In this document: positions 11,366-33,269 of the stretch, one piece after another
Position numbering within the stretch: the stretch's first letter is position 1
Layout: each line of letters begins with the position of its first letter
Assembly: GCA_963920765.1 (NCBI GenBank)
Contig: OY987246.1
Coordinates: forward strand, 4,094,501 to 4,158,500
Source: Ulota crispa
Taxonomy: Eukaryota; Streptophyta; Bryopsida; Orthotrichales; Orthotrichaceae
Direction: 5' to 3'
DNA length: 64,000 nucleotides
The notes under the pieces: generated by a model
The model's database searches: none
The model's input: the letters and a program-made list of their open reading frames with translations, nothing else
What the model was told of the DNA's origin: nothing
Program-made: the position numbers and the translations under genes

Positions 11366-12338
11366 TTAAATTGAATTTTTTTGAGTTGTTATGAATCAAC
11401 TACAATTTATCAAAGCAAAAAGTGCATATGTAGCTATTCTTGATCATAAGCTACAGCATCCATGGTTCAAAAGTGGCTTGTAAATGGAGCACATGAGTTC
11501 AAAAACCAATCACCACAAAGCTAAGGATGCTCAACTAAGTTGTTTAAAGAGTGCAAGCACCCATTCCATATTTTGATACTCAATATATGATTGAAAATAA
11601 GTTTTTCTTTATTTTAGTATAACATGTATTTATGTTTTACTGAAGGGCAAATCTCAACACAATTATGACCAATAAATACACTCAATAGTGACTCATGTCA
11701 CTCTATTAAATTCTTAGAACCGTGCATACACAAGTACAATTTTTGAATGTAGAGAATGTGACCCATTTAAGAAGCTATATGCACTGCTTTTGAAACCCCT
11801 ACAATGGCGGTTCAAAATGCCTCCACTGTTTATGAGCCTCCTACCTTACCTCGTAAGATGAAGCGTTTTTCAAATAGATGATTATTTTGCCTAATTCCGT
11901 TTAGCTTCTAAGCCAATGAACAAAAGTGAAATATCATTCTCTAAGGTGCTCTAACAATATACAATGGACAATCTAAATAACTGGAGTAGGGCGTTCTCTA
12001 TTTCAACAATACAGAAAAGTTCTCCGTTCACTTCTATCACATGCTATTCCTACGTTCGCTGAGGTACACTCGAAGCTCACGTGGAAATTATTTTTCTAGC
12101 ACCAACAAAAGAGAAAAAGAGAGCCCTCTGCAAAAATGCAATAAAACTTCCCTTTCTTGCAGAAGATAAGTGATGCAGCGACTTACATCCATAAATATAT
12201 GGATGGGGCATGCAGAATACGCATGGAGAGTGCAAAATGGAGAGTGCAAAATATGGATGGGTATCGTAGAACCTGAATGGAGCATACAGAATATGGATGA
12301 ATGCAGCATATTTACCCAAAATGTAGGAACACAATTAA
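11366..12338. other. Anonymous AT-rich intergenic DNA
   Basis: No gene, RNA or element recognised. Near 12190-12300 there are loose repeats of 'gagagtgcaaaatggag' type. Short open frames here overlap on both strands and show no family signature. Confidence 0.4.
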
Positions 12339-12771
12339 CTCCTAAAGGACCACTTGTCCTTACGGGAACAAATGGGATTTTGGGCATGTACTTATGGTTA
12401 AACTACTTTGTGTAATTTTTTGAAACTTTTATGGAAGATGGGGAATTCAAAAATTTGAATGGTATCTAGTTTATTCCTCATTTTGATGTTTATTGAAGAA
12501 GTTAAAAATGAATTTATGTGAATTTTTGTTTTTTTAAAAATAATAATTTGAGATTAGTTCCTTAGACTTATGATATGTGGGAAGCTTTGAATCATTCAAT
12601 TCTAATTGATGAGATAAAAGTTATGAGAAGTTTTAGTTTGCGGGTGGGTGTGGAAAATCTCAAAACTATGCCTAAACGCAAACTAAAACTTCTCATAACT
12701 TTCATCTCATCAATTAGAATTGAATGATTCAAAGCTTCCTACATATACGTAAGTTTAAAGAACTAATCTCA

Positions 12772-12811
<40 letters not shown>

Positions 12812-13029
12812 ACAAAGCTTTTGGGCTGCCCGCTAAACAAAAATTCTCATAAATTTATTTTTAACTTCTTCAATAAATGTCAGAATGAGGAATAAATTAG
12901 ATGCCCACCCAAATCTTTGAATTCCCCATTTTCCATAAAAGTTTCAAAAAATTACACAAAGTAGTTTAGTCATAAGTACATGCCCAAAATCCCATTTGTC
13001 CCCCATAGGAACAAGTGATCCTTTATGAG
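12339..13029. mobile_element. Large foldback element between TTAA sites, ~690 bp
   Basis: Almost the whole element is an inverted repeat centred near 12655. The left arm starts CTCCTAAAGGACCACTTGTC; the right arm ends with its near complement CCTTTATGAG; each is bordered by TTAA (12335-12338, 13030-13033). A run of 33 A interrupts the right arm at 12777-12809. The ends differ from the CCC...GGG consensus, so membership in the TTAA family is probable rather than certain. Confidence 0.55.
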
Positions 13030-13879
13030 TTAAAGGTTAAGCAATATTAAGCACTCTTAATTGCAAAAGTATTCTCCAGTTGTTTCTTTCAAAAAAGATG
13101 GTTTTTGAATAAATACTCAAAATGTTTGCAAAGACGTAGAAAACCAAGCCAGCAAAACAGTACTCTTAACCACATTTTTCATTACAAAATACATGGACTT
13201 AGGGGCACCTATAAGGATTAAGATAGGATGCTGACTTGCTGAGATATAATGTGCAAGGATTGCTTTTGCTCAAAGGAATTTTCTAAATGAAAGTGCTCAT
13301 ATTAATACTTCTAACTCTTCAAAGTGAGTATTTGAAAGTAGATATACTATGGATCTAAAGGGAAATTGTCAAAATTTTCAATAATTGACAAAGTTGCAAT
13401 TAAACTAACTTCTTATTCAATGCTGTTAATTGAGAAGAAGTCATTCTACAATTTTGTACAGTACATGCTTTTGCAATTATGTGAGTCATAAGCTTGTAAC
13501 GACATGAACAGTGCAATATATGCAAATGGAATCATGCATTTGTACTTCATCATTTTCAACAATATGTCACACTCAAAGTATTGCAACCCTAATTTTAACA
13601 CACACAAATTCAAGGCATGAATTACAAGTTAGATTGCATAGAATTTAGTATTAAGCTCTTAAATGATTTGGAATTTTTGTATCATGCTAATGGGTGATAA
13701 CTTCATGAACCACTGATAACCTTTAGAATATCAAGATTTTATTTAAAGTCAAGAAGGTTTGAATATCAACCTATTGGCTTTGGGACTATTATTCCAAGTT
13801 GCAAAGAAAGGCCAAAAAAAGTTGATCCTCACATAGTATTTAAGTATTTATGTATTCCTTTCTGCACCAGAAGGTTTAG
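13030..13879. other. Anonymous AT-rich intergenic DNA
   Basis: I see no coding signature, repeat array or element ends in this stretch. Confidence 0.4.
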
Positions 13880-21608: not shown

Positions 21609-24600
21609 ATGTGGAGAATCGTCCCGATCAGAGGTCCACGGTTCTGGCCGGAATTCATACGCAGGCCCGTTCCGCTGAAGAACCTGTCGTCCTTGCCGCG
21701 TCGAAGCCCTAATTGCCCTGTCGTTCTCGAGCCCGAACGGTTTCGCGGTGCTGCAGCAGCAACGTCGTCGTCGGAGCGCGAGTATGGCGGATCATCGTAT
21801 GGACCGGCGGGGATGCAGCTACGATTTGGCGATGCCAGCGGTGCGGGGCGACCTGTCGTTGTGGTCGCTGCTGCGAGGAAGGAGGTCGTTTCTGGTGAAG
21901 GAATTGCGATTCGAATTGGCCATCGTGAGGACGTCGTGACAATGTTGGGGATGGAGGATTTTTGCGGAGATGTGGCGATGCCGGGAGGTGTGGACGAGGA
22001 ATTGTTGACGATGCTGCATGGAGGGAGTAGTGTGGCTGTGGACGTGGAGCGGGAGGCTGGAAGCGACAGCAAGGTCCGGCATGGCGGTGATGTGTCGCGG
22101 TTCCGTTCTGAGGTCGTGACCGGGGGAGTGCCTCGGCTGTTGTCGCAACGGGTACGACATTGCAGCTGAGTTGAATTTTTATTGCTGAGCTCCTGTAACA
22201 CGCTCTCTTGCGATGCCTGCATGCATCAGTGTATAGCTAGTGGCATCTGTCTTGGCCTTCGTTAGGTACTATGCCTTTGGATTTGGAGGATAAATTTGGT
22301 ACAAGCTGTGTCGTCATGTAATTTAGAATCGTAAGCTCCAAAGAGTTAACCCATTAACGTCTGGTCGACCATTTCCTGGTCGATTTTGACAGAGAGCATG
22401 TCAAGGAATTTGATGACATGGCAAAGGGGACGGGAATTGGAAAGTGAAGAGTTTAGGACAATAACCAGGTCAATCTGAGGTGGCATATGGGTTGTAAAAA
22501 ACTAAAAGAGTACCGGTTGAAAATGCACCAATATATGGAAAAAGATGGCCATAACAATGAAAGAGTGAGCATAATTCATGATGCATAACACTAAACCTAG
22601 ATGGCCATAACAAATACTTCCATTTGTACGGTTAAATCTGTGGTAAACATCTGTATTCAATAGTTTTAAAATTTGCCCCAAATGGCCATACAAAGGATTG
22701 CCCACCCCAGAATCGACCACAGACGTTAATGGGTTAAGCTCCTAAGCACGCTTTCTGGCGATGACTTAATTATGGAGGCACGTGCAAGGTTCAGGAGGAA
22801 GCACTCGCTAGATGCATCAGTTGTTGAGCTAGTGGCATCTGTCTTGGCCTTCGTTAGGTAGCATGCCTTCGGAGGATCATTTTGGTACAAGTCATGTAAT
22901 TTAGAATCTTAAGCTTCAAAGAGTTAAGCTCCTAACCACGCTTTCTGCCGAAGATTAAATAATGGAAGCACGCGCAAGGTTCAGCTTTCAGTAGCTATGG
23001 AGCTTGTTGGATTAGTCTTCATTAGCAACGTTAAGGATGATGCCTTTGGAGGAAAAATTGGAGCGATTGGTTGGAGAAACATATTGTTTGGAGTGAAAAG
23101 AAAAGGAGAGGACAAAGCAAACTGTGTCGTCATTTAGTTTATTATTATAAGCGGTTAGTGAGAGTGATTACGTTGTGTATAGACAGACGGGGTGTGAGAT
23201 GCTGCGAGTTCGGGATTTTCGGGTTAGAAGCAAATCTCGAAGGTGTTTTGGAAGATCGTAGGGTTATATTAGTATAGACTTCGATTAAGAACTAGTTTCT
23301 TCTGTATTTAGTGTAGTAGGCATGTTGACGAATTCCGATTGGAAAACGCTGTGGATTTAAATGAGACCAGTAATGACGCTTGATTGTTTTAGATGATCTA
23401 GAGGTTTTTATACCAGGTCCACGTTATCGGGGAACATCGTTACTCTAACTTCTTTTGAACTAAGTAATTTTCCTAATTTAGTAAATACTCCCTTTGTCCC
23501 ACTATAAAGCTCCAAATTAGGCATAGTTCTTGTCCCACTAAAAAGCTACGTTTTGCTACTTTCAAGCGCTAAGAAAGCGTATGTCATATTAAATGATCTC
23601 ATGTGGGCAAGTTAAGATATTAGGGAGTATTCCTCTTATAGCAAGCTTGACCTTGCCCATATGAGGTATCATTGTTGCTACTAATCTTTGAATCATCAAT
23701 AATGAGGAGCTAATAACATGCACAAATATGGTACTTTCTGCACGGAATTTGGGTGTCTAACAGCAACATAAAAACTGGATATTTTGTAGACATTTGGTAG
23801 GTGGTATATTGATTCTAGACTGCATGTGTCACACTAGCATAATGACTAAAAATATAATTAATCCCTCATGGAGAAGTTTTTTGGAGCTTTATAATGGGAC
23901 AGAGGTAGTAAATAGGATGTTTGTTATTACGTAACAAGCGCGGAATAGCTCTCCGGATCCTAGTTCAGCTTCATCTAAACGGGGCGCTATGCTTGGTGAA
24001 TTCTCTGGAAGATGGAGGCTGGTAGTAAATCTATATAGGGCAGAATGCAGTTAACATTGACAATCAATTTGGGTTACGAATCGTCGCACTTACAATGATT
24101 TTTCTTTCATTCTGTTAATACTGTTTTCGTCTCGCTTGGTTTTGAAATAATGACCATCACGTAAATGGTTGAGCAGAATCTTTTAACTGGAGCAGATCAC
24201 CGGCGGCGACGGGCCCTCACTGACTTCAGTAAATTTCAAGGCAGTGTTCCACATCGTCAAGGTTCTTTGAGGGAGTTTACTCACCACGCAGCTTCTGAGA
24301 CCTACTTGATCACCCGATTAGCTCTCACGCTATTGAAGTTGTTAGGGTAGGTTGGCATCATCTTTGATGGTGTCTCTTTAGTCCTTTTCCTCTTTTTATC
24401 TTCCCCATATTGTTTTGTCTTTTCTCAATCAGGTGATTAATGATCAATGAACAAATCTTGTCAATTTTGTCCTTTCAGCCTGATGTTAAGAGTTTCGATC
24501 CGGAAACGGCCGAAGTTAATGGACTTGTAAAACACTTTCAAAAAACATTTAGGAGTACGATCTATCTTTCATGGAGTAGTCGTGTTTTTACACTATTAGC

Positions 24601-29555: not shown

Positions 29556-29621
29556 CTCTATATATATATCTATCTATATATATATATTGGTGGAAAGTAG
29601 AAATATGGCCCAAGTTCTTAA

Positions 29622-29854
29622 CCCCTAAAGGACGATGCAGCCCTTTGCAACCAATACAATATAGGATATTTTTCTTGTATTTGGAATGGATCCACACCTC
29701 TATTACATTTGAGATCAACAAAGAAGTTGGAGGATAGATCAATGCGATTCTAGTGAGGTAGTCAAGATCCCAAATCAAAACTTTTGTTGGTAGTAAATGC
29801 CAGTTATACAGCAGCGTACATATTATGTATTCTGGTAGCCTCATCCTTTAAGGA
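29622..29854. mobile_element. TTAA-flanked MITE, 233 bp, subfamily A
   Basis: Starts CCCCTAAAGGACGATGCAG and ends CATCCTTTAAGGA between TTAA sites. Interior close to 37431-37655 and, in reverse, to 13880-14105. Confidence 0.75.
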
Positions 29855-30072
29855 TTAAACTGTAGGAACATGTTTAGAACTCTGTTGTAATTATAAGTAT
29901 TGGTACAGTCACTTTAAAAAAAAATTCAAGCACTTCGGAGATAAGTTAACAATAGTGAAATGGGTGGCAAATGATGATTTATGTGTCCTTCGTTTAATTT
30001 GGAGGACGAGTTTGCAATTTTTGTAATTTTGAAATGATAGTGAAGTTAAATATCAAAAATTGAATAAGTTAA

Positions 30073-30127: not shown

Positions 30128-31101
30128 TTAAGGAACTTTCAATTTATACTTTTCCATTATATTGCAGCTGTCCAAAGGAACAGATTGAGAGACATATCTT
30201 ATGTTCATATTACAAGGTTTCAAAGCTTGGCATAGTTTTAGCAGCTAAATATCGGTTTTCTTTTCATCTTTTTTGAAAGAGAAAAAACGTTGATTTTTCG
30301 TTGTAGTTTCAAGGTTGGTTTCTTGTTGTTTTCACATGGAAGCCTGTGCTTGCACTATTTTGCACCTTGCTAAGTACTGTACTTTTTGGTTATCTGAAGA
30401 GAAAACAAGATTTTATTTGAGAAAATTGTTGTTTCTTGTACAAAAATGCCTCAAAAAGACTTTGTTTTGCTTGAGGTTTGAAACTTGCTATTGTTAGAAA
30501 ACCAACTCAATTCTTGTTCTATCGTTCGCTAGGGGTTATTAATTTATCTAGTTTAATAAGATCAAAATAAGTAAATATGATATTTGATAACTTGGATTAC
30601 AAACTTGAAGGGCAATGAAAGTAAATTGTGGTTTTTGTAATTTGAAGTGAATCATTTTCATAAAGAAAGGTCTCTATAGAAGAGAGACATTTTTATGAAC
30701 ATTTGTGATGATTTGAAGTACATTATTGATAATGACCAATCTCAAATATCAGTTGTAGAAATGTCGTTTTCGTAAATCCCTACTTGCTTGACACTTCATA
30801 ATACTAGAATGAATTTTTTTGTTATAGATTTTTGTTAAACATTTTCTTAGAAAATTTGGGGCACACGAAAATAATATATAGAATACTGCATGCATAAATT
30901 ACGGAACAGTTTTGCACATTTAAAAAGAAAACAACAAGAGATATAGTAGATGAGATTTGGTTATGTAGTTGCTAAACATTGTCTTAATGACAATATACAT
31001 GAAGTTTTTTTGAGCATCTTGGAGGTTGTTTTAAACAAAATAAAATACTAAAACTTTGATGAGTTTGATCAAATTTTAAAATTGTAGCCACACACTCTTA
31101 A
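30128..31101. other. Anonymous intergenic DNA
   Basis: No gene or element ends recognised; AT-rich with T-runs. Confidence 0.4.
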
Positions 31102-31460
31102 CCCCTAAACGTTGAGGAGAACAAAAAACGTTGTCCGGCCCTAACAAAAGATTATGTTACAAAAAAAAGTTGGTTTTTATTTGATTTTTTCAGAAGTGAT
31201 CATAAACACATGGTCCATCATGGAAGACAAAAAATTACCTCATCAAATGCATTCATATTTTTAAGCAACCTAAATCGTGATAAGATTCAAAAACATGGTG
31301 TTAGGTCCCAAGCTACCCTTCTTGCAATTTTCATGAGGGCACCATGCAATGTTAACTCTTGCAACTTTAGGAAATAATTTTATAATTGCTAGGCACTAAG
31401 ATGAACAGTATAAAGTATTGTAGCTAGGCTGGTCACGGTAACCAGCTCAATGTTTAAGGG
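31102..31460. mobile_element. TTAA-flanked MITE, 359 bp, subfamily B
   Basis: Starts CCCCTAAACGTTGAGGAG and ends CAATGTTTAAGGG between TTAA sites. It is the uninterrupted relative of 14526-15090 and the reverse of 10970-11365. Confidence 0.75.
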
Positions 31461-32327
31461 TTAAAAGATGTATTATAATTGAGAAAAAAAGAAACAAAAA
31501 TAATAACACCACATATGAATTGGAAAATCATCTTGTTTGATCATTAGAGGGTCAAAGCTATGCAGGTAGATCAAAGTTGTTCAATCTTAATTCTACATAA
31601 GAAATTAAAAATTGAGGTTACATAAAGAATACAAGATTAAAAGACATAGCATGCATAACCATAATCAATTTATAACATCTCAAAACTTATTTTTCAAAAA
31701 AATTAGAGGCTATTAATGTGCTTATTTTCCCCAAAAATCCAATGTATTTGAGGCCCATCTAAAAAGTTCTTAACTCTAGATAATCTAGTTTTACAATGGA
31801 CACATTAGCACAACTTGAAAGTAAAATCATTAACACTCATTTTTTGAAGTAGGATGTTTGACGCCAGATTTAGATTTAAAGTAACGTTCATTTTAAAACT
31901 GAAGCACTATAAACAAGAATTCAATGGTAAGATTTTATTTTGATTTCAAAGATTTGGGGGTATGCAAGAGTTGTATTAAAATTTCATTGTTAACGCCAAA
32001 TCAAGATTTTGGATGAAGATTTAGTTCAATGAGCCAAATTTCGATTGGATTTAGGGTCAAACAATGACCTAAGGTTTTGATTTGTTCCTCATGTAAAGCT
32101 CTTGGGGTTAACTGATAACTTGAATCTAAATTAATGTATGGGGACTCAATTCTTGAGTTGAGTGGATGCATTGTGGTGAACCAATATTTTTTACTAGGGA
32201 CAAATTTTTAGCGCCAAAATTTGGCCAAACAGTCTATTGACATCCTCTATAAACTTATAAAACTAATTGGGTAGATTATCAGAATTGAGCCTTGAGATCC
32301 AATTGATGTTTTCATTATAAGCTTTAA
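31461..32327. other. Anonymous intergenic DNA
   Basis: AT-rich; no coding family, tandem array or element ends seen. Confidence 0.4.
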
Positions 32328-32411
32328 CCCTTGAACGCCAGGGGTGTGATTGTGGGTGCACGGCCCCGTGTATTCCCGGGGACGGAAATTGTCCCCTTCG
32401 GCGTTCAAGGG
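32328..32411. mobile_element. TTAA-flanked palindromic mini-element, 84 bp, subfamily C
   Basis: Starts CCCTTGAACGCC and ends GGCGTTCAAGGG, a perfect 12-bp inverted repeat, between TTAA sites. The middle has a second dyad around cccgtgtattcccgggg. The whole could fold into a stem. Confidence 0.8.
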
Positions 32412-33269
32412 TTAACCTCTAAATGCTCAAGGCACCAAATTTTGGGTGTTCATTTAACTTTGAAACCTTGCTACTGTAAAGACATAAATTTGATTATTTT
32501 AGTTTACTTTTCTTTTGAGTTGTGGTCTAAAGTTAACTTCAATGTCCAATTTTAGTGTCCTCCAAACTACATTCCAGTTTTTGTTGGAAGTCAAATTGCA
32601 AGCATATTTCTTGCACATCAAAAAGTGTAATGAATAGTGTCACTAAAGAGCTTATGGCAAGTTACCACATTGGAAAAATAGGCAACAAGTTGAGAATAGA
32701 GTGAAGATCTATATTGGCACTCCCCTAGGCACCAAGGGCCCTTCTATTGAAAATTCATCATCTAATAAAATCTGAATATTTTTTTGGGCTAATTTCACTT
32801 GGAATATCTTTGTTACACAAATCAAAATTCATTCATTGTTGAAAATCTCTTTCATTCATAGTGATTTTTGGTCCAATTTTGGAGCTAAAATTTTCTTTGT
32901 ATTAAGTGTTAGCTCTTTGATAATTGCATTGCAAACTCATTTGTAAAACTGTGGTCATAGATTTGGAAGGAGGGTCATCAATTTTGAAGTAACAACAGTA
33001 ATCACTAAATCATTGTAAATGGTCATTTCCCAAATTTATACACAATTATTGCCATTTTTGCGATTGTAGGTTTCAAGTGACTCCAAAAAATACCAAAAAA
33101 TTCCATACACATCCACATTCAATCACAAGTATTCTAAAATCCCTGTGACATTTTTGGATCTTTTTTGATAGCACCAAATAGAACTCTTGGAGTTGAAAAT
33201 CCTATAGTTATAGTTTTTGTTTTATTTTTAAAAATGATCTTGCAACCAAAATTCAAAAATTTCAGACTA
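32412..33269. other. Anonymous intergenic DNA
   Basis: No gene, RNA or repeat recognised. Confidence 0.4.

Follow-up and report, generated by a model that had tools for sequence, protein, structure and literature searches.

A short insert between two TTAA motifs in the window (the whole stretch of 64,000 nucleotides of Ulota crispa DNA that was analysed) raises the question of which transposon superfamily placed it in this moss genome. A duplication of TTAA by itself does not identify a superfamily, and Kolobok and Sola3 are TTAA-specific superfamilies. The earlier note had read the locus as the signature of piggyBac transposition.

The insert and its empty paralogue

The 384 bp insert starts with CCCATTAACGTCTG and ends with CAGACGTTAATGGG. 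When the neighbouring TTAA copies are included, the ends form a perfect 18 nt inverted repeat (22346–22363 and 22720–22737). A diverged duplicate of the host segment lies ~590 bp downstream; it lacks the insert and has a single TTAA. The joined flanks of the insert aligned to this duplicate ungapped at the junction, with the nearest gaps >30 bp upstream, and the identity of the flanks between the occupied and the empty segment was about 85–90% in blocks. The earlier description (a 384 bp insert CCC...GGG with TTAA duplicated) was right to the base. The features in window coordinates are as follows:

22230–22345, plus strand: host flank on the left of the insertion, with a duplicate downstream
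22346–22349, no strand: left TTAA of the target duplication (TTAA here in 27 of 29 family copies)
22350–22733, plus strand: non-autonomous piggyBac-type element (MITE), 384 bp, with ends common to transposase-bearing elements
22350–22363, plus strand: left terminal inverted repeat CCCATTAACGTCTG
22362–22383, plus strand: left subterminal TGGTCGACCA...TGGTCGA repeats, candidate transposase-binding sites
22713–22719, minus strand: right subterminal TGGTCGA (minus-strand reading)
22720–22733, minus strand: right terminal inverted repeat
22734–22737, no strand: right TTAA of the target duplication (TTAA here in 24 of 29 family copies)
22738–22794, plus strand: host flank on the right of the insertion, with a duplicate downstream
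22822–22984, plus strand: empty site, the paralogous host segment without the element
22924–22927, no strand: single TTAA of the empty site

The TGGTCGA repeats beside both termini of the MITE may be transposase-binding sites, judging from their sequence and position. The left ends of the large elements described below carry TGGTCGA-like variants at the same place. The earlier note had put the insert into intron 1 of ICME; the 10 frames tested for ICME gave two weak alpha/beta-hydrolase matches below the cut-off, 3–4 kb downstream of the insert.

The MITE family in the assembly

The assembly searched comprised 274.8 Mb in 157 contigs. The insert as query gave 664 candidate places; the 40 that were scored comprised the copy in the window and 39 more with 81–86% identity, and the family copies among these places were found on contigs C1–C10. 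Thirty of the 40 (L009–L038) were read, and both ends were located in 29. The flank counts refer to these 29: L027 was excluded because its right end was not located, and L034, with a doubtful right end (three mismatches), was counted.

The expectation that further copies would be bounded by TTAA held. TTAA was found on the left in 27 of the 29 copies, on the right in 24 and on both sides in 22, while the bases further out varied; other flanks occurred on the right in five copies and on the left in two. Of the 30 copies read, 27 measured 384–409 bp (the right end of one being uncertain) and the other three 362, 455 and 483 bp.

The 18-mer TTAACCCATTAACGTCTG occurred 191 times in the 275 Mb assembly with up to one mismatch, and its reversed-pattern control did not occur, which excludes a chance origin of the insert's pattern. 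The right terminus TTAACCCTTTARCGACCRTGGT was found 401 times (up to two mismatches) and the left terminus TTAACCCTTTAACGACTGGTCGACC 328 times (up to three mismatches), again with zero hits for each control. Two copies, L024 and L030, bear a CCCTTT form of the terminus; as they match the window element across its length (83 and 82% identity, respectively), the CCCTTT and CCCATT forms belong to one family. Taken as a family, these elements are short and non-coding, have terminal inverted repeats, occur in many copies of uniform length and have left hundreds of ends in the assembly, as is usual for MITEs.

Empty sites of other copies

Flanks were joined at a single TTAA for 24 copies (omitting L009, L014, L025, L034 and L037). 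A second search used 14 of these 24 joins, including a few neighbouring letters and ending four letters short. Both searches scored 40 candidates, and joins without a match are uninformative.

All 40 scored places crossed the junction of the L011 join at 92–99% identity, meaning that L011 sits in a high-copy repeat. The six empty places fetched for it each had one TTAA and were ungapped near the junction. In the second search (43 rows), 36 rows belonged to L029 and seven to L020; three and four of them were fetched, respectively, and all seven were ungapped at the junction. Hence, three further copies lie within other repeats, with 13 of 13 fetched empty counterparts ungapped at the junction, and the comparisons total four sites when the window paralogue is included.

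Scoring empty sites, as the earlier note had suggested, confirmed one TTAA without a gap in the window and for L011. It did not do so throughout: the empty copies read TCAA for L029 (three of three) and L020 (three of four, the fourth reading TTAA). These TCAA copies are probably variants of the repeat family, and the element would have entered a copy with TTAA, in keeping with a strict requirement for that target. Integration at TTAA with its duplication, as in piggyBac, was thus seen in 22 of 29 copies and at the empty sites.

The empty paralogue in the window might also be an excision product, if the segment was duplicated together with the element and one copy then lost it seamlessly. The two segments in the window do form a local duplication, and piggyBac excision restores TTAA exactly (PMC7351741, excerpt). 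As such excision is traceless, the paralogue could be pre-insertion or post-excision, and the window site by itself does not decide. At L011, however, the element is missing from 40 or more related places, which a single insertion into one of the copies explains more simply. We regard excision in the window as a real but minor possibility.

piggyBac transposases in the genome

The profile search for a piggyBac transposase (DDE_Tnp_1_7) proposed earlier was positive. PF13843 gave 120 matches above the cut-off on contigs C1–C11 (116 of 528 candidates scored), with a best E value of 1.3e-73, and matched in none of the 14 control genomes. When two of the proteins were compared with the PDB (E ≤ 0.001), the matches were exclusively piggyBac (6x67/6x68) and piggyBat (9c0f).

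Most of the PF13843 copies listed contained stops. The motifs TxDE, DNxFT and GVDxxDQ were all present in L050, L056 and L057, and one or more of them were missed in other copies by the loose motif pattern used. The three motifs appear to correspond to D268, D346 and D447, the catalytic residues of T. ni piggyBac (PMC7351741, excerpt); the first two were aligned to the PDB matches and the third to piggyBat. L051 has an open frame with N at the third catalytic position. L055 has N at the second, and L055, L056 and L057 have in-frame stops inside the transposase domain. Among the elements read, none combined MITE-type ends with an intact and catalytically complete transposase.

No Pfam match to a zinc-ribbon domain was obtained for L051:3550-3963, the sole C-terminal frame tested; a Cys/His spacing at the C-terminus of L051 was seen by eye. 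L050 and L051 have a similar upstream frame, also seen by eye, and the coding part of the large elements is perhaps split.

Stop-free piggyBac domains were observed at C1:1180709-1181995, C8:19570986-19572215, C2:36765124-36766008 and C2:36779670-36780554, the last two on opposite strands with identical scores. Such copies may be recent, active or domesticated. A further stop-free transposase frame lies at C2:34594948-34595949.

Link between the MITE ends and the transposases

We compared 116 transposase places with 100 listed of the 401 right ends and 100 listed of the 328 left ends; four of the 120 PF13843 rows were left out as further pieces of split matches. Nine pairs of end and transposase, no more than 5 kb apart, fitted the arrangement left end–transposase–right end on matching strands; no pair was arranged wrongly. 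One of the nine is not independent, since the right-end pattern was modelled on L051. Random placement, in which the size of C11 was a guess, gave 0.20 pairs on average and never more than three in 5000 trials.

In three complete elements, the left and right ends of the insert surround a piggyBac transposase:

L055, C6:4934225-4939386: 5162 bp, TTAA at both ends
L056, C2:17807089-17812653: 5565 bp, TTAA at both ends
L057, C4:2140470-2146183: 5714 bp, TTAA at both ends

A fourth candidate, C2:2654623-2660750, was recognised solely from the coordinates of its two ends and a transposase. The left end of L051 adjoins another TTAA element, and L051 was not counted as complete because its outermost bases there are unrecognisable. 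Over its first 43 bp (81%) and its last 67 bp (74%), the window MITE matches the element at C2:17807089, with which L030 has 51 bp at 84% in common. Among the first ten transposase loci, a search within 1.5 kb of the domain located a right end in three and a left end in none; L049 had a right end only and L050 neither end.

In a tree of 15 transposase domains, L051, L055, L056, L057 and L043 formed one clade with a support of 1.000. The identity was 64–73% within this clade and 29–38% to the other ten domains. MITE-type right ends were present in L051, L055, L056 and L057, and the ends of L043 were not located. Outside the clade, L039, L044 and L048 had other candidate right ends (TTAACCCTTCAYYGCC).

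A DDE_Tnp_1_7 transposase between matching ends was accordingly found in the larger relatives, the MITE itself having no transposase. The piggyBac termini rule CC[C/T]T (PMC2872659, excerpt) applies exactly to the CCCTTT members and the transposase-bearing elements, and the window copy reads CCCATT. Ends of beetle piggyBac elements include CCCT, CCCTTT and CCCATT (PMC12732532, excerpt) and are very like the moss ends.

Interpretation and mechanism

The insert is almost certainly a non-autonomous element of the piggyBac superfamily, with ends presumably recognised in trans by the transposase of 5–6 kb elements in the same genome. This reading draws on the insertion structure, the TTAA duplication, the common ends and the piggyBac transposases inside elements with those ends, all of which were observed directly. 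The independent TTAA duplications and the PF13843 transposases within the same ends uphold the piggyBac signature. The earlier note had left a choice between an unusual piggyBac lineage and an unrelated transposase with convergent specificity: piggyBac is present, and convergence is not needed, as the same ends flank PF13843.

The reaction chemistry and the mobilisation in trans would follow those of the known T. ni enzyme. Transposase from the 5–6 kb elements would recognise the ends of the MITE, which would contribute its ends alone, and would nick or cut there. Hairpins would form with the four flanking bases (TTAA) and reopen, leaving TTAA overhangs, and the ends would be joined into another TTAA, bent and unpaired, so that TTAA is duplicated. 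The donor site would be repaired seamlessly, making excision traceless. Nicks, TTAA hairpins, TTAA overhangs, a bent unpaired TTAA target and seamless repair are the steps described for piggyBac (PMC7351741, excerpt).

A different TTAA-specific superfamily, Kolobok or Sola3, might have mobilised the MITE, its likeness to piggyBac being convergent. The ambiguity of the TTAA duplication would allow for this. The same ends enclose elements encoding a PF13843 transposase, however, and one transposase clade bears those ends (CCCATTAACG/CCCTTTAACG), with L039, L044 and L048 differing in their candidate right ends. We therefore consider such an origin very improbable.

Equally improbable is an element of mariner/Stowaway type with ends A...T that duplicates only TA and has a strong preference for TTAA. 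As TTAA is palindromic, a 2 bp and a 4 bp duplication are indistinguishable in perfect copies, and the sequence is compatible with a 2 bp duplication. Moreover, conservation is highest in the bases directly next to the element (29 of 29 on either side), and the outermost ones are found in 28 of 29 copies on the left and 25 of 29 on the right. The associated transposase is nevertheless piggyBac and not mariner, and the ends of the insert are those of the elements with piggyBac transposase and look quite unlike those of a Stowaway-like MITE elsewhere in the window.

An assembly artefact or contamination with animal or fungal DNA can practically be dismissed: piggyBac is rarely reported from plants (PMC12732532, excerpt), but the MITEs are spread across C1–C10 and the transposases across C1–C11, some MITEs are inserted within other repeats of the genome, and contig C157 carries plastid genes (psaA and psaB, adjacent). 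Compared with the PDB, the PsaA protein scored best against 8htu, followed by 6l35/7ksq/7kux/7xqp (1733 and 1713 bits, respectively), ahead of 9lut (1698 bits) and of a group at about 1650 bits and lower; 8htu and 6l35/7ksq/7xqp are photosystem I structures from the moss Physcomitrium, in line with a moss host.

Comparison with known systems

The moss elements resemble the piggyBac superfamily (T. ni piggyBac and piggyBat) in TTAA duplication, CCC...GGG termini, DDE_Tnp_1_7, DDD motifs and repeats near the ends; they differ in their moss host. Stowaway and other Tc1/mariner MITEs have in common with the moss MITE an AT-rich target and a short non-coding element with terminal inverted repeats, but the partner found here is piggyBac. 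The moss MITE presumably lacks mariner-type ends.

MITEs of piggyBac type with TTAA are an accepted kind, e.g. in corals (PMC2872659, excerpt). According to the same excerpt, the coral CMITE is likewise short and non-coding with terminal inverted repeats, TTAA on both sides, kinship to piggyBac and an empty allele or paralogue; it has another host and is about 100 bp long, compared with about 385–410 bp for the moss MITE. The large moss elements that were read are 5.2–5.7 kb long with a coding part that is perhaps split, whereas beetle piggyBac elements are 2.1–3.5 kb long with a single ORF (PMC12732532, excerpt).

piggyBac in plants

The REXdb library of plant transposases includes a PiggyBac class. 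A plant review lists PiggyBac among the class II superfamilies of plants (PMC10794571, excerpt). A paper from 2025 describes piggyBac as widespread in animals, fungi and protists and occasional in plants, e.g. red algae (PMC12732532, excerpt), and surveys of insects (bees) and animals mention it in 'plants' in passing, without detail. Repeat tables give 1,230 'PiggyBac' fragments for a fern, 206 for Oryza coarctata and 60 for Stellaria, each ~0.00% of the genome, with no structural proof in the portions of text available. There was no report of piggyBac in a moss among the matches listed for the open-licence literature, which speaks only weakly for its absence; in the genome paper of the moss Pohlia nutans, piggyBac is not mentioned in the main text.

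The individual element is an ordinary piggyBac-type MITE; the unusual part is that a land plant should carry a number of divergent piggyBac lineages. Transposase lineages within this genome share 29–56% protein identity. Mosses as a whole, or else just this lineage, are likely to harbour a piggyBac radiation that is diverse and of long standing, which would make piggyBac a genuine genome-shaping superfamily in a land plant; some of the stop-free frames may be active or domesticated. The non-autonomous offspring amount to hundreds for one family; they may run into the thousands if piggyBac also accounts for the window's other TTAA families. The superfamily itself is known but little described from such a host, and its scale in a moss is what makes the finding of interest.

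piggyBac is a main tool for transgenesis, and a moss genome with many copies offers native plant ends and transposases. It is also a natural case in which to ask how land plants acquired piggyBac, kept it and silenced it. A warning follows as well: TTAA MITEs may have been misclassified in assemblies of bryophytes.

Other repeats in the window and the assembly

A second TTAACCC...GGGTTAA element lies at window positions 31098–31464 (367 bp; ends CCCCTAAACGTTGAG and CCCTTAAACATTGAG). It had 3,551 candidate places, and most of the 40 scored (itself included) were near full-length with 81–86% identity. It is probably another family of piggyBac-type MITEs.

A nearly palindromic fold-back element of 699 bp with TTAACTC ends occupies positions 12335–13033. 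With 40 of 6,417 candidate places scored, it matched not only itself but also numerous relatives, on both strands.

More TTAA-bounded inverted repeats with CCC ends lie at 527–774, 29618–29858 and 32324–32415. Their status is unproven because TTAA-bounded inverted repeats were not in excess in the window: there were 10 pairs, compared with 0–16 for eight other palindromes. The motif TTAACCC occurred 31 times in the window and ranked third of 210 letter permutations (median 9).

The Stowaway-like MITE is an inverted repeat at 23486–23910. Its ends, CTCCCTTTGTCCCACTATAAAG, adjoin TA and resemble the Stowaway signature of grasses.

At L010, L017, L052 and L055, TTAA elements seem to abut end to end with one TTAA in common, which suggests insertion into the TTAA flanking an earlier element. 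Furthermore, 46 of 48 PsaA/PsaB matches were found outside contig C157, on C1–C10, and the nuclear contigs therefore contain many insertions of plastid DNA.
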